From contig JAJZES010000039.1 in the NCBI GenBank assembly GCA_021845985.1, positions 46,079 to 110,078 on the forward strand: a DNA stretch of 64,000 nucleotides, written 5' to 3'. The notes beneath the pieces were generated by a model. The model saw only the letters and a list, made by a program, of their open reading frames with translations. It made no database searches and was not told the DNA's origin. The position numbers and the translations under genes are program-made. Below, one piece after another: positions 24,048-30,787 of this stretch (its first letter is position 1; each line of letters begins with the position of its first letter). The DNA comes from Pseudomonadota bacterium. Its GTDB lineage: Bacteria; Pseudomonadota; Alphaproteobacteria; Acetobacterales; Acetobacteraceae.

Positions 24048-24935
24048 ATGGCACCCCCCCCACCCCCGCATGCCGCATTGCGCACGGCGGCGCGCACCTG
24101 GTTCGAGGGAGTGCGCGACGCGCTGTGCGCCGCGTTCGAGGCCATCGAGGCCGAGCCGCACGACGCGCCGGCCGAGCCGCCGCCCGGCCGCTTCGTCCGC
24201 ACCGCCTGGTCGCGCCCGACCGAAGACGGCGCGGACGGCGGCGGCGGGGTGATGAGCGTGCTGCGCGGCCGGGTGTTCGAGAAAGTGGGGGTGAATGTCT
24301 CGACCGTGTCCGGCACGTTCAGCCCGGAGTTCCGCGCCCAGATCCCCGGCGCCGCCGAAGACCCGCGCTTCTGGGCCAGCGGTATCAGCCTGGTGGCGCA
24401 TCTGCGCAGCCCGCGCGTGCCGGCGGCGCATTTCAACACCCGCATGCTGGTGACGACGCAGGGCTGGTTCGGCGGCGGCGGCGACCTGACGCCGATGCGC
24501 CTGGAGAGCGCCGAAGCGGTGGCGGACGCCGCCGATTTCCACGCCACCTTGCGCGCCGCCTGCGACCGCCACGACCCGACCTATTATCCGCAGTTCAAGG
24601 CATGGTGCGACCGCTATTTCCATCTGCCGCACCGCGACGAGCCGCGCGGCGCCGGCGGCATTTTCTTCGACCACCATTTTACCGGCGACGCGGCGGCCGA
24701 CTTCGCCTTCACCCAGGATGTCGGCCGGGCGTTCCTGGAGGTCTATCCGCGCATCGTTCGCCGGCGCATGGCCGAGCCGTGGACCGCGGCCGAGCGCGAA
24801 CACCAGCTCATCCGCCGCGGCCGCTACGTCGAGTTCAACCTGCTGCACGACCGCGGCACCCTGTTCGGGCTGAAAACCGGCGGCAATGTCGAGGCGATTT
24901 TGATGAGCCTGCCGCCGGAAGTGCGCTGGCCTTGA
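24048..24935 (+). CDS. hemF: Aerobic coproporphyrinogen III oxidase
   Basis: [91 protein letters not shown]. Confidence 0.94.
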
Positions 24936-24939
24936 CCAA

Positions 24940-25050
24940 AGAGGGAGCGGCCGGCCGTAGCCGGCCGCTCATCTGGTGCGCCCAAGGGCGGTGAGGCCCA
25001 GGGGCACTTGTTAACGGAAGGCCCGCATTCCCCCATCGGCTATATGGAAC
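24940..25050 (-). ncRNA. Putative tracrRNA of the type II-C CRISPR-Cas locus (ends approximate)
   Basis: Minus strand reads TATAGCCGATGGGGGAATGCGGGCC (25044-25020), identical to repeat positions 3-27 on the + strand and so complementary to minus-strand crRNA repeats. It continues TTCCGTTAAC (lower stem, with 2x2 U.U loop), then a nested stem-loop (24976-25007), then GAGCGGCCGGC-UACG-GCCGGCCGCUC (24945-24970) followed by CCUCUUU. Confidence 0.85.
24945..24970 (-). terminator. Terminal hairpin of the tracrRNA: 11-bp stem with C(UACG)G tetraloop and short U-rich tail
   Basis: Perfect inverted repeat gagcggccggc-cgta-gccggccgctc; the 3' side on the minus strand is CCTCTTT. Confidence 0.65.
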
Positions 25051-25105
25051 GGTGACTTTCCAACCCGACGTTGCGCCGAAATCGCGCGTGGCGTCAAGTT
25101 GGCGG

Positions 25106-28100
25106 ATGACATACCGTCTCGCACTCGACATTGGTGCCAACTCCATCGGCTGGTGCCTGTTCACCCTCGACGCCTCCGAACCACCGGAGCCGATCGGCAT
25201 TCGCGACATCGGCGTCCGGGTGTTCCCGGACGGGCGGGAGGCGAAAACCAACGCCTCGCTCGCAGCGGCGCGGCGCGCGGCGCGGCAGATGCGGCGGCGG
25301 CGCGACCGCTATCTGCAGCGGCGGGCCGCCCTGCTCAACACGCTGACCCGCTGGGGTCTCATGCCCGCCGCCACGGCAGAGCGGGCGGCGGTGGCGGCGC
25401 TCGACCCCTATGTGCTGCGCGACGTGGCACTGACGCGGCGGCTGGAAGCGTTTGAACTTGGCCGGGCAATCTTTCATCTCAACCAGCGCCGCGGCTTTCG
25501 CAGCAATCGCACGATCGACCGCAGCAATCAGGACGAGAAGGGCAAGATCAAGCAGGGCGGCGAAAATCTGGCCATTCAGATCGCCCGCGGCAATTTTGCC
25601 ACGCTCGGCGCGTGGCTGGCGGAGCGGCACGCAAAACGGGCGGAGGTGCGGGCACGGCTGCGCGGCACCGGCATGCGGGCGGCGTATCCGTTCTATCCGA
25701 TGCGCCACATGATCGAGGCCGAGTTCGACACGATCTGGACGGCGCAGGCGGCATGGAACCCGGCCTTGTCGGCGCCGATGCGCGCAGAGATTCATCGCGT
25801 CCTGTTCTCCCAGCGCAACCTGCGCAAGCCGCTCGTCGGCAGATGCTGGCTGGAGCCGACGCAGGACCGGGCGCCGCGCGCGCTGCCGAGCACGCAGGCA
25901 TTCCGCATCGCCCAGGATCTCGCCAACCTCGCCATCCGCCGGCCCGGAGAGCCGGATCAGCGGCCAACTGACCAGCAACGGGCGCTGCTGTTCGATTTGC
26001 TCATGGCTGGCCACGATCAGTCGTTCGGCCAGATGCGCAAGCTGCTCGGGCTGAGCCGCAGAGAACCCTTCAATCTCGAATCGCGCGCCCGCGACGGCCT
26101 GAAGGGCAGCGCGACGGCGACGCGACTGGCCGGCAAAAAAGGGCCGTTGCGGGCGGTGTGGACGGATTTGCCGCTGCTGGAACAAGACGAGATCGTCCGC
26201 ATTCTGCTGGAAGCGGAGGGAGAGGAGGCGGTGGCGGCGGCGCTGGCGCGGTTCGCCATCCCGGCCGACGCCGCCGCGGCAGCGGCCGACATGACGCTGC
26301 CGGATGGGCATGGCTCACTCTCGACCAAGGCGATCACGGCGATCCTGCCGCATCTGCTGGCCGGCAACACCTATGATGCCGCCGTGCAACTGGCCGGCTA
26401 CGCGCATCACTCCGACGACCGCGACGGGGTGATCCGCCCCTGCCTGCCATATTACGGCGAGATTCTCGGCGAGCGGCTCGGGACCGGCAGCGGCAAGCCC
26501 GAAGACTCCGAGGAACGCCGCTTCGGCCGTGCGCCCAATCCGACCGTCCATGTCGCGCTCAACCAACTGCGCATCGTCGTCAACACGCTGATCGAGCGCT
26601 ACGGGCCACCGGCGCAGGTGGTGGTGGAGGTGCTGCGCGAACTGGCGCAATCGGCCCATCAGCGGGCGCTGGTGGAAAAGGAACAGGCGGAAAATGCCAA
26701 GCGCCGCGCTGGATGGGTCAAGCAGCTTGAGGAGCTGCGCGAGAGGCCGAACGGCCGCAACCTCGCCTTCATGCGCCTGTGGCACGAACAGGCCGAGGAC
26801 CCGAAGGATCGGGTCTGTCCCTATACTGGCCGGCTGATTTCGCTCGAACTGCTGTTTTCGGGCGAGGTCGAGGAAGACCACATCCTGCCTTATGCGGTGA
26901 CGCTGGACGACAGTTTCGCCAACCGCGTGCTGGTGACGCGGGAGGCCAATCGCCGCAAGGGCCGGCAGACGCCGCATAAGGCGTTCGGCGGTTCGCCCGA
27001 ATGGCCGGACATTCAGGCACGGATCAAGGCACTGCCGGGCAACAAGGCGTGGCGGTTCGCCCCCGGCGCGCTGGAAAAATGGCGCGGCGAGCATGGCGAT
27101 TTTCTCGCCCGGCATCTGACCGACAGCGCCTATCTGGCGCGGCTGGCGCGGCTGTATCTGCGCGCGGTGTGCGACCCCGATCAGGTCTGGGTGGTGCCGG
27201 GCCGGCTGACCGGCATGCTGCGCGGCGTGCTGGGGCTGAACAGCGCGACGCTGCTCGGCAAGGGCGGTGCGCGCAAGGAGCGCAACGACCACCGCCACCA
27301 CGCCATCGACGCCCTGACCATCGGGCTGATCGACCGCAGCCTGTTGCAGCGCGTGGCGACGGCAGCGCGGCGGGCGGAGGACAGCGGGCGGCGATTGATG
27401 GAGGATGTGGAGCCGCCCTGGCCTGGCTTCGTGGCGGAGGCAGCGGCGCGGGTGCGCGGGATCGTGGTGTCGTTCCGGCCGGATACCGCCCCGGCAGGGC
27501 AGTTGCACAACGCCACCGCCTATCGCCAGCTAATCGGGGCCGGCAAGGGCGAGCCGAACGTCGCCCATCGGGTGCCCATCCAGTCTCTGGCGGGCTGGTC
27601 GGCGGAGGACGTGACGACGGCGGTGCCCGACCCCGATCTGCGCGCGCGCATTCTTGCCGCCCTTGCCGCCGACGGAAAACCGGCGCAGGCCGCGGCCCTG
27701 GCGCAAGTGGCGCACGATCCCGACAGCGCCGTTCGTCATATCCAGGTGCGCGAACGCCTGGACGGAACCGCCGCCATCAAGGACCGCCGGACCGGCCGGC
27801 CATACAAGCTGGTGAAGCTGGACGCCAATCATCGGGTCGAAATCTGGCGGCTGCCGGGCGAGCCGGGCGCGCCCGCCAGGCCGGTGATGTGCGTCATCGC
27901 GTTGATGCAGGCGGCGATGGATGCGGAACTGGCGCGCCTCGGCCGCCCCGTGCCCGACCGCCGGCCGCATCCGGCCGCCCGGCTGCTGATGCGGCTGCAC
28001 AAGGGCGACGTGGTGGCGTTCGGCAACGGGGCCGGGCGGCGGCTGTTGCGCGTCATTAAGTATCGCAGCGGGCAGGTGACACTTGCCACTCTGCATGAAG

Positions 28101-28249
28101 CCGGAAATCTGAAGGCCCGGGATGCCGAAAAGGACGATCCGTTCAAGTATGTAAACGCCGGCGTGACGAGATTTCGCGAGGAGCGCGCCCGAAAGGTGTT
28201 CGTCGATCCCGCCGGCCGGGTCCGCGACCCCGGCCCGCTCAAATGGTGA
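25106..28249 (+). CDS. cas9: CRISPR-associated endonuclease Cas9, type II-C, about 1047 aa
   Basis: RuvC-I MTYRLALDIGANSIGW; Arg-rich bridge helix AAARRAARQMRRRRDRYLQRRAALL; RuvC-II QVVVEVLREL; HNH CPYTGRLISLELLFSGEVEEDHILPYAVTLDDSFANRVLVTREANRRKG; RuvC-III NDHRHHAIDALTIGL. The ORF track start at 25052 adds 18 upstream residues; MTYRLALDIG at 25106 is the family-typical start. Confidence 0.96.
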   Translation: MTYRLALDIGANSIGWCLFTLDASEPPEPIGIRDIGVRVFPDGREAKTNASLAAARRAARQMRRRRDRYLQRRAALLNTLTRWGLMPAATAERAAVAALDPYVLRDVALTRRLEAFELGRAIFHLNQRRGFRSNRTIDRSNQDEKGKIKQGGENLAIQIARGNFATLGAWLAERHAKRAEVRARLRGTGMRAAYPFYPMRHMIEAEFDTIWTAQAAWNPALSAPMRAEIHRVLFSQRNLRKPLVGRCWLEPTQDRAPRALPSTQAFRIAQDLANLAIRRPGEPDQRPTDQQRALLFDLLMAGHDQSFGQMRKLLGLSRREPFNLESRARDGLKGSATATRLAGKKGPLRAVWTDLPLLEQDEIVRILLEAEGEEAVAAALARFAIPADAAAAAADMTLPDGHGSLSTKAITAILPHLLAGNTYDAAVQLAGYAHHSDDRDGVIRPCLPYYGEILGERLGTGSGKPEDSEERRFGRAPNPTVHVALNQLRIVVNTLIERYGPPAQVVVEVLRELAQSAHQRALVEKEQAENAKRRAGWVKQLEELRERPNGRNLAFMRLWHEQAEDPKDRVCPYTGRLISLELLFSGEVEEDHILPYAVTLDDSFANRVLVTREANRRKGRQTPHKAFGGSPEWPDIQARIKALPGNKAWRFAPGALEKWRGEHGDFLARHLTDSAYLARLARLYLRAVCDPDQVWVVPGRLTGMLRGVLGLNSATLLGKGGARKERNDHRHHAIDALTIGLIDRSLLQRVATAARRAEDSGRRLMEDVEPPWPGFVAEAAARVRGIVVSFRPDTAPAGQLHNATAYRQLIGAGKGEPNVAHRVPIQSLAGWSAEDVTTAVPDPDLRARILAALAADGKPAQAAALAQVAHDPDSAVRHIQVRERLDGTAAIKDRRTGRPYKLVKLDANHRVEIWRLPGEPGAPARPVMCVIALMQAAMDAELARLGRPVPDRRPHPAARLLMRLHKGDVVAFGNGAGRRLLRVIKYRSGQVTLATLHEAGNLKARDAEKDDPFKYVNAGVTRFREERARKVFVDPAGRVRDPGPLKW

Positions 28250-28253
28250 CGCC

Positions 28254-29261
28254 ATGTCCAGTCCGCTCGGCCGCATCGTCGAGATCGTGGAAACCGGCCG
28301 GCATCTGTCGAAGGAGCGCGGCTTCCTGGTGGTGAGCGCGGGCGCGCGGGAAGTTGGCCGCGTGCCATTGGATGATCTGGCGGCGGTGCTGGCGACGGCG
28401 CGCGGCACCTCGGTGTCCGTGGCGTTGCTCACGGCGCTGGCCGAGCGCGGATTGCCGTTCGTGGTGCCGGGCACGAACTTCGCGCCGGCGGCGCTGCTGT
28501 GGCCGCTGGCCGGGCACCACGCCGCCAGCCGGCGCATGGCAATGCAGATCGAGCGCACGCGGCCGATGGAAAAGCGGCTCTGGGCGCTGGTGGTGGCGGC
28601 GAAAATCCGCCGCCAGGGCTGGGCGCTGCAATGCGCCGGCCTGCCCGCCGGCGCGTTCGTTCGTCTCGCTCGTGCGGTGAAGGCGGGCGACCCGGACAAT
28701 CTGGAGGCGCAGGCGGCGCGGCGATATTGGACCCTGCTGTTCGGCGCCGCGTTCCGGCGCGATGCCGACGCGGCCGGCGCCAATGCGCTGCTCAATTACG
28801 GCTACGCGGTGTTGCGCGCGGCGGTGGCGCGGGCGATCTGCGCCGCCGGGCTGCATCCGGCACTCGGCATTTTCCATCGCCATCCCGAAAACCCGACGCC
28901 GCTGGCCGACGATCTGATGGAGCCGTTCCGCCCGATCGTCGATGCGGCGGTGCGGCGCTTGCTCGATGCAGGCGTCACCGAGGTCACGGTGGCGGCGAAG
29001 CGACAGCTTGCCGGGCTGCTGTGGCAGGATGAAGTGACCGCGGCGGGGCACAGCCCGCTGATGACGGCGCTGTTGCGCTGCGCCCAAAGCCTCGCCGACA
29101 GCTACCTGACCGGCGAGCCGGATTTGCAGTTTCCGCTGCTGCGATTGAGGGAGACCGCAGATGGCCGAACGCCTGAGCGGCTATCGGATCATGTGGCAAG
29201 TGCTGATGTTCGATCTTCCGGTGATGACGAAGCCGCAGCGCAAGGCGGCGACGGGGTTTAG
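28254..29261 (+). CDS. cas1: CRISPR-associated endonuclease Cas1 (type II)
   Basis: DPDNLEAQAARRYW (catalytic Glu), HPALGIFHRHPENPTPLADDLMEPFRPIVDAAV (His, Asp); directly downstream of cas9. Confidence 0.94.
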   Translation: MSSPLGRIVEIVETGRHLSKERGFLVVSAGAREVGRVPLDDLAAVLATARGTSVSVALLTALAERGLPFVVPGTNFAPAALLWPLAGHHAASRRMAMQIERTRPMEKRLWALVVAAKIRRQGWALQCAGLPAGAFVRLARAVKAGDPDNLEAQAARRYWTLLFGAAFRRDADAAGANALLNYGYAVLRAAVARAICAAGLHPALGIFHRHPENPTPLADDLMEPFRPIVDAAVRRLLDAGVTEVTVAAKRQLAGLLWQDEVTAAGHSPLMTALLRCAQSLADSYLTGEPDLQFPLLRLRETADGRTPERLSDHVASADVRSSGDDEAAAQGGDGV

Positions 29262-29499
29262 GCAATGGCTGCTGGACGAGGGCTGGGAGATGAGCCAGTT
29301 CAGCGTCTATCTGCGCTGGTGCGTCGGCAAGGAACAGGCGGACGTGCGCACGCGCGCGGTGGCCCGCAAAGTCCCGGCGGAGGGCAAGGTGCATGTGCTG
29401 AACGTGACCGACCGGCAGTTCGCGGCGATGGCGGTTTTCCGCGGCAAGACGCGCGAGCGGCCGGGCCGGGGGCAGCCGGACCAGTTGACGCTGTTCTGA
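29161..29499 (+). CDS. cas2: CRISPR-associated endoribonuclease Cas2
   Basis: YRIMWQVLMFDLPVMTKPQRKAATGFRQWLLDEGWEMSQFSVYLRWCVGKEQ; overlaps cas1 by 101 nt in another frame. Confidence 0.93.
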   Translation: MAERLSGYRIMWQVLMFDLPVMTKPQRKAATGFRQWLLDEGWEMSQFSVYLRWCVGKEQADVRTRAVARKVPAEGKVHVLNVTDRQFAAMAVFRGKTRERPGRGQPDQLTLF

Positions 29500-29519: not shown

Positions 29520-29567
29520 CCGATCGGCGCTAATCTGTCACGTATTCAACAGATTAGCGCCGATCGG
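29520..29567. repeat. Perfect 19-bp inverted repeat with 10-nt loop, between cas2 and the first CRISPR repeat
   Basis: CCGATCGGCGCTAATCTGT (29520-29538), CACGTATTCA, ACAGATTAGCGCCGATCGG (29549-29567); last base is base 1 of the first CRISPR repeat. Confidence 0.9.
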
Positions 29568-30787
29568 TTATAGCCGATGGGGGAATGCGGGCCAACCGCA
29601 ACTATTCCGGCATTCAAGGCTCGCTTGCCGTGGTTATAGCCGATGGGGGAATGCGGGCCAACCGCAACGGATGCGCTGTTCCGCCGGATCGGCCGGCGGT
29701 TATAGCCGATGGGGGAATGCGGGCCAACCGCAACCTTGCCGGGCTTCGGCGCGACATGTTCACGGTTATAGCCGATGGGGGAATGCGGGCCAACCGCAAC
29801 TCGCGCGCCTGTTCGCGTGGTGCGCGTTGCGTTATAGCCGATGGGGGAATGCGGGCCAACCGCAACTTTTCGGCGTTCAACCAGCTCAGCAACATCGTTA
29901 TAGCCGATGGGGGAATGCGGGCCAACCGCAACTCACCATCCTGTCATATTGGCGACGCGAAAGTTATAGCCGATGGGGGAATGCGGGCCAACCGCAACTC
30001 CCTGCGGAAGCAGGCGAAGGCGTCTATCGTTATAGCCGATGGGGGAATGCGGGCCAACCGCAACGTACCAGTCACTCTGACACCCGCCAAGGGTGTTATA
30101 GCCGATGGGGGAATGCGGGCCAACCGCAACCTTGCGCAGCAAGACTCGCGTGGTGCGTGCGTTATAGCCGATGGGGGAATGCGGGCCAACCGCAACGGCT
30201 TGACCACCTGCACGATCGACAGTGTGGTTATAGCCGATGGGGGAATGCGGGCCAACCGCAACTAGCCCGCGACGCTGGCGCCGGTGACCGGGGTTATAGC
30301 CGATGGGGGAATGCGGGCCAACCGCAACTCTGCGAGCGACGGGCAGCCAGGGAAAGACGTTATAGCCGATGGGGGAATGCGGGCCAACCGCAACCGGGTC
30401 ACGCACGGCGACGCCGCCGGCGGGGTTATAGCCGATGGGGGAATGCGGGCCAACCGCAACAGCGGCGTGCGTGATGCGCTCATAGGCCGAGTTATAGCCG
30501 ATGGGGGAATGCGGGCCAACCGCAACTACCTAATCGTTCACGTTCCCCCGCGCAATGTTATAGCCGATGGGGGAATGCGGGCCAACCGCAACACCGGCCC
30601 CGTGCTCATGGCCAGCGCGGCGTTATAGCCGATGGGGGAATGCGGGCCAACCGCAACACGTGCCAGCCGAGGATGTGTCGCCGGTGGTTATAGCCGATGG
30701 GGGAATGCGGGCCAACCGCAACACTACGCGCGGCTGGCGCCCGGCACCTACGTTATAGCCGATGGGGGAATGCGGGCCAACCGCAAG
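29567..30787 (-). CRISPR. Type II-C CRISPR array: 19 x 36-bp repeats, 18 spacers (15 of 30 bp, 3 of 29 bp); crRNA strand inferred minus, repeat GTTGCGGTTGGCCCGCATTCCCCCATCGGCTATAAC
   Basis: + strand repeat GTTATAGCCGATGGGGGAATGCGGGCCAACCGCAAC starts at 29567, then every 66 bp to 30557, then 30622, 30687, 30752; only the last copy differs (terminal C to G). Orientation from tracrRNA anti-repeat strand. Confidence 0.97.

Follow-up and report, generated by a model that had tools for sequence, protein, structure and literature searches.

The minus strand of positions 24,940 to 25,050 almost certainly carries a tracrRNA gene that is functional and belongs to a complete type II-C CRISPR-Cas9 locus. 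The gene was found in a 64,000-nucleotide stretch of an Acetobacteraceae contig (the window), just upstream of a complete cas9-cas1-cas2 operon with the CRISPR array beyond cas2. This reading is based on the pairing with the repeat, covariation in the structure, conservation of position and strand, a conserved upstream box and the intact cas genes. The anti-repeat lay outside the array, the gene lay near cas9, and the nexus-like and terminal hairpins were conserved in relatives, in line with the general account of tracrRNA finding in Cas9 surveys (PMC7606464).

Pairing of the anti-repeat with the CRISPR repeat

Positions 25020–25044 were the exact reverse complement of repeat positions 3–27 (25 nt; repeat read on the plus strand), as the first-pass annotation had stated, and a scan of the 64 kb showed this to be the sole site outside the array that shared at least 12 bases with the repeat. 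The chance expectation for a 25-nt match was about 1e-9 by our own arithmetic. When the 100-nt tracrRNA candidate was searched against its own genome, the matches were the candidate locus and the array only. When the repeat GUUGCGGUUGGCCCGCAUUCCCCCAUCGGCUAUAAC and the candidate, both read on the minus strand, were cofolded, a 25-bp duplex was followed by a 2x2 internal loop (UU/UU) and a lower stem of 7 bp that contains a bulged U and a G.U pair, at −66.3 kcal/mol for the whole; this reproduced the pairing to repeat nt 1–7 that had been predicted earlier. On the minus strand, the perfectly complementary upper anti-repeat (25020–25044) is thus followed by the UU on the tracrRNA side of the internal loop (25018–25019; a 2-nt gap in most relatives) and by the lower anti-repeat CCGUUAAC (25010–25017), which pairs with repeat nt 1–7 and in which U25013 is bulged.

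Because the anti-repeats of relatives were located by complementarity, the upper-stem pair counts are biased, and the independent evidence came from the lower stem and the tail only. Scoring of the lower stem was anchored on GTTAAC and therefore free of selection for complementarity. All 7 positions of this stem paired in 22 of 23 systems, and exchanges at repeat positions 6 and 7 (G-C to C-G, and A-U) were matched on the tracrRNA side. Compensatory changes were seen in L037 and L038, where the repeat starts with GUUGCGC and the tracrRNA has the matching GCGUUAAC, and in L039 and L081, where GUUGCCG is matched by CGGUUAAC. Since the changes in repeat and tracrRNA compensate each other, the 3' half of the anti-repeat is formed by CCGUUAAC. 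A resemblance of CCGUUAACAAG to the SpCas9 nexus had also been pointed out; homology was ruled out by these compensatory changes, and the nexus position holds only AAG and the following hairpin.

Extra hairpin-forming inserts were observed in three relatives, between the upper and lower anti-repeat in L075 and L090, and inside the upper anti-repeat in L034. No array was present in the stretches examined for these three, of which those of L075 and L034 reach contig ends.

Structure and covariation of the 3' tail

The tail folded into a nexus-like stem around GGGC-CUCACC-GCCC and then an 11-bp hairpin closed by C(UACG)G, which agreed with the nested and terminal stem-loops of the first-pass annotation. 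The folding energy was −50.5 kcal/mol (z −6.4), and none of 200 shuffles was equally stable. The nexus-like stem-loop, GUGCC...GGCGC, occupies 24978–25007 on the minus strand and is lengthened by the inner GGGC/GCCC hairpin, with a 19-nt loop insertion in the covariance model match described below. The terminator-like hairpin (24945–24970) was called on the minus strand only (24970–24945, tail CCTCTTTGGT) and is followed by a U-containing tract, CCUCUUUGG (24936–24944, minus strand), which is weak.

Tail covariation was counted in 11 close relatives with the window left out, because distant members aligned poorly in the 20-sequence tail alignment (A1). Both hairpins (helices 1 and 2) covaried, with 99.4% of the cells paired and 7 pairs changed on both sides. 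The covariation score was 0.400 vs 0.201 in shuffles, a value reached by 0 of 500 shuffles and by no slid version. A covariance model built from the same 11 relatives, and thus out-of-sample for the window, gave a single strong match there (25017–24941, minus strand, 70 bits, E 1.4e-15); the next matches were the palindromic hairpin on the opposite strand (18.7 bits) and noise. No Rfam family reached its gathering score in a scan of the window.

The hairpin at 24945–24970 starts 10 nt beyond the stop codon (24935) of the upstream hemF gene (24048–24935, coproporphyrinogen oxidase) and is nearly symmetric, so that it might be mainly a terminator of hemF and not of the tracrRNA. However, the plus strand has no U run, and in relatives the equivalent hairpin stands 3' of the nexus at a near-constant distance and covaries within the tracrRNA model, which makes a hemF terminator in the main improbable. 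The hairpin may well serve both hemF and the tracrRNA.

The cas operon and the CRISPR array

The cas9 gene (25106–28249, plus strand, 1047 aa) matched TIGR01865 (E 1.4e-151), HNH_4 and RuvC_III. Its start is most likely the ATG at 25106, where the conserved Cas9 N-terminus starts, rather than the upstream GTG at 25052. Residues D7, E507, D590, H591, H731 and D734 (counted from T at 25109) were invariant among the aligned relatives, and the residues expected for RuvC and HNH catalysis were conserved in the window Cas9. The type II cas1 (cas1_NMENI; 28254–29261, plus strand; TIGR03639, E 2.4e-63; PADLOC Cas1_II) and cas2 (29161–29499, plus strand; TIGR01573; PADLOC Cas2_II) follow. Neither csn2 nor cas4 was present between cas9 and the array, which assigns the locus to subtype II-C by gene content: a compact Cas9 that has RuvC and HNH is accompanied by cas1 and cas2 alone.

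The array (29567–30787, crRNA strand minus by pairing orientation) was found by repeat scan and consists of 19 repeats of 36 nt with spacers of 29–30 nt. The repeats were identical in 18 of the 19 copies; the last one, which is the extra, first-transcribed repeat on the minus strand (30752–30787), has one mismatch, at its first base (30787). In relatives, degenerate repeats were also mostly at the cas-distal end. Published work on II-C systems reports promoters lying inside the repeats, the uptake of new spacers at the last repeat and a mutated extra first repeat (PMC12080349, PMC12638026). The mutation in the window, which by its sequence position falls in the extra repeat, fits the II-C pattern of PMC12080349; the degenerate repeat is at the crRNA-5' (cas-distal) end, and by the published rule the new-spacer end would be the opposite one. 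By sequence resemblance, a −10-like TATAAC is present at the 3' end of the crRNA repeat; TA occurs at that place in all 26 repeats compared, and 21 of the 26 end in T.

The three cas-distal spacers (30593–30751) are 29 nt long and the other fifteen 30 nt; these three are probably the oldest. A 19-bp hairpin (29520–29567), a putative pre-crRNA terminator, abuts the cas2-side array end, and a strong hairpin was seen at this end in most alphaproteobacterial relatives, often with TTTCA or ATCA in the loop. Given its place, at the expected end of pre-crRNA transcription and on the side at which II-C arrays take up spacers, this hairpin may be a terminator, an acquisition signal or both. With the array as query, no spacer target was matched in the phage collection. 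Among plasmids, the array gave one weak 39-nt piece and an array-wide match to an Azospirillum thermophilum plasmid, which is probably array against array since that plasmid also carries a Cas9.

The locus is dispensable, because this cas9 was absent from 2 of the 5 genomes searched in the window's own genus, and the tracrRNA gene might be a decayed, non-functional relic next to a dead locus. Such decay is very improbable, however, given that the Cas9 catalytic residues are kept, the repeats are identical but for one, the 25-nt anti-repeat is exact and the hairpins are intact.

Promoter and direction of transcription

A −35-like element, TTGACG, of a putative tracrRNA promoter is located at 25092–25097 on the minus strand. 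Its TTGAC was conserved: counting the window, 13 of 15 close relatives have it 78–84 nt before CCGTTAAC, vs 0.83 expected in shuffles. A putative −10 element, CAACGT (25068–25073, minus strand), lies 18 nt from the −35 element, and by eye most close relatives have a CAANNT-like hexamer in the corresponding position. The promoter scan called no consensus sigma-70 promoter for the tracrRNA. As judged from the placement of the two elements, the tracrRNA would start near 25061, and the conserved TTGAC box supports transcription from the minus strand.

In cofolding, only the minus orientation of the array paired with the minus-strand tracrRNA; with the tracrRNA read from this strand, the array transcript that pairs with it is the minus one as well. 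The identity of the tracrRNA, its architecture and the minus direction of both tracrRNA and array, which the first-pass annotation had likewise assigned, are therefore supported at the level of sequence by the pairing, the covariation, the out-of-sample model match, the TTGAC box and the layout in dozens of relatives. Transcription of repeat and anti-repeat in the cas direction is hardly conceivable and was rejected: the same 25 bp can also form as a duplex of two plus-strand RNAs, and the near-palindromic terminal hairpin gives a weak plus-strand model score (18.7 bits), but the lower part of that duplex is shorter and weaker (−60.3 vs −66.3 kcal/mol), the region downstream on the plus side is the cas9 start region, where no terminator was called, and both the covarying conserved tail and the TTGAC box are on the minus side.

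The minus-strand tracrRNA is divergent to cas9, and 8 bp separate its −35 box from the start codon of cas9. Several Acetobacteraceae had the −35-like box about 8–13 nt from this codon, without a clear Shine-Dalgarno sequence. A cas9 transcript begun upstream of the tracrRNA gene would carry the exact tracrRNA complement, including the repeat-like stretch, in its 5' leader. Nevertheless, we consider it unlikely that in Acetobacteraceae the tracrRNA regulates cas9 as an antisense or guide-type RNA. A built-in single guide of the tracr-L type was rejected: upstream of the anti-repeat, where the predicted leader would be about 17 nt, the sequence showed no repeat-plus-target stretch.

Distribution in relatives

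Within the order, for which 397 genomes were searched, a Cas9 relative was detected in 19 other genomes, and 387 genomes of the class yielded additional ones. In the 12 order-level relatives in which repeat and anti-repeat were both read, the anti-repeat was on the minus strand at a small distance upstream of cas9, and its placement was the same in the class-level relatives. One relative with an array, L040, showed no clear anti-repeat when read by repeat complementarity; its tail was later matched by the covariance model. Among 398 family genomes, the model matched 26, the window's own included (25 further). Matches in three of the family genomes (G086, G339 and G782) fell outside the Cas9 matches listed at 1e-60; these loci are possibly partial, divergent or unsampled.

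In a named collection, the Cas9-alone query gave no matches, and the alignment query gave 80 loci. The closest were from Rubritepida, Elioraea, Roseomonas- and Rhodopila-labelled genomes, and other Acetobacteraceae or Rhodospirillales. The motif GTTAACAAG or its variants, followed by hairpins, was present on the minus strand at most 700 nt upstream of cas9 in 62 of the 80. The nexus segment is 27 nt in the window vs 11–12 nt in close relatives (about 16 nt longer), and it measured 20–24 nt in 13 of the 80 named loci, mainly from Azospirillum and similar groups. The longer nexus of the window is natural length variation, not a new part, and it is the sole peculiarity of this tracrRNA.

Comparison with known systems

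EH CRISPR-Cas9 is a type II-C system whose closest homologues are in Alphaproteobacteria and whose guide activity was tested in E. coli (PMC10281378). EH and the window share the order cas9-cas1-cas2-array, a tracrRNA gene of about 100 nt upstream of cas9 with predicted promoter and terminator, one direction of transcription for tracrRNA and array, and two stem-loops 3' of the anti-repeat. Their sequences differ, and the comparison is one of layout and RNA anatomy; a further point of difference is the window's nexus hairpin, whose length exceeds that in its relatives. Rubritepida flocculans DSM 14296 and other Acetobacteraceae-type genomes (L126, L124, L128 and L131) were near-identical to the window in anti-repeat, hairpin order and distance to cas9. 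Their tracrRNAs share UUCCGUUAACAAG (or UGCGUUAACAAG) with that of the window and their Cas9 proteins are 51–69% identical, whereas their nexus segments are 11–12 nt long.

The Cas9 and tracrRNA of Neisseria meningitidis belong to the same subtype II-C, and the closest solved structures to the window Cas9 included 6kc8 and 6jdv, which we take to be structures of the Nme-type Cas9 (NmeCas9). The N. meningitidis tracrRNA differs in sequence from that of the window. Streptococcus pyogenes has a II-A locus with csn2 and follows the same outline of dual RNA, RNase III and Cas9; the likeness of its tracrRNA to the window in CCGUUAUCAAC is not homologous in position.

Proposed function

We propose that transcription of the tracrRNA would run along the minus strand from near 25061 to near 24937 and end at the C(UACG)G hairpin. 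The anti-repeat would pair with every repeat of the pre-crRNA, which would be read from the minus strand too, and the resulting duplex would then be trimmed by RNase III. Cas9 (25106–28249) would bind the dual RNA via the lower stem, the nexus-like hairpin and the 3' hairpin, and would cut spacer-matching DNA beside its PAM.

This is an ordinary tracrRNA, well preserved and common to many related bacteria, and its layout matches that of published, partly tested II-C loci. It adds one more example of a lengthened nexus hairpin and leaves the current understanding of type II-C systems unchanged. The locus provides a guide-RNA pair that is complete and self-consistent, for a compact Cas9 (1047 aa) of a high-GC, Acetobacteraceae-type lineage; the pair is usable for the design and testing of a single guide RNA.
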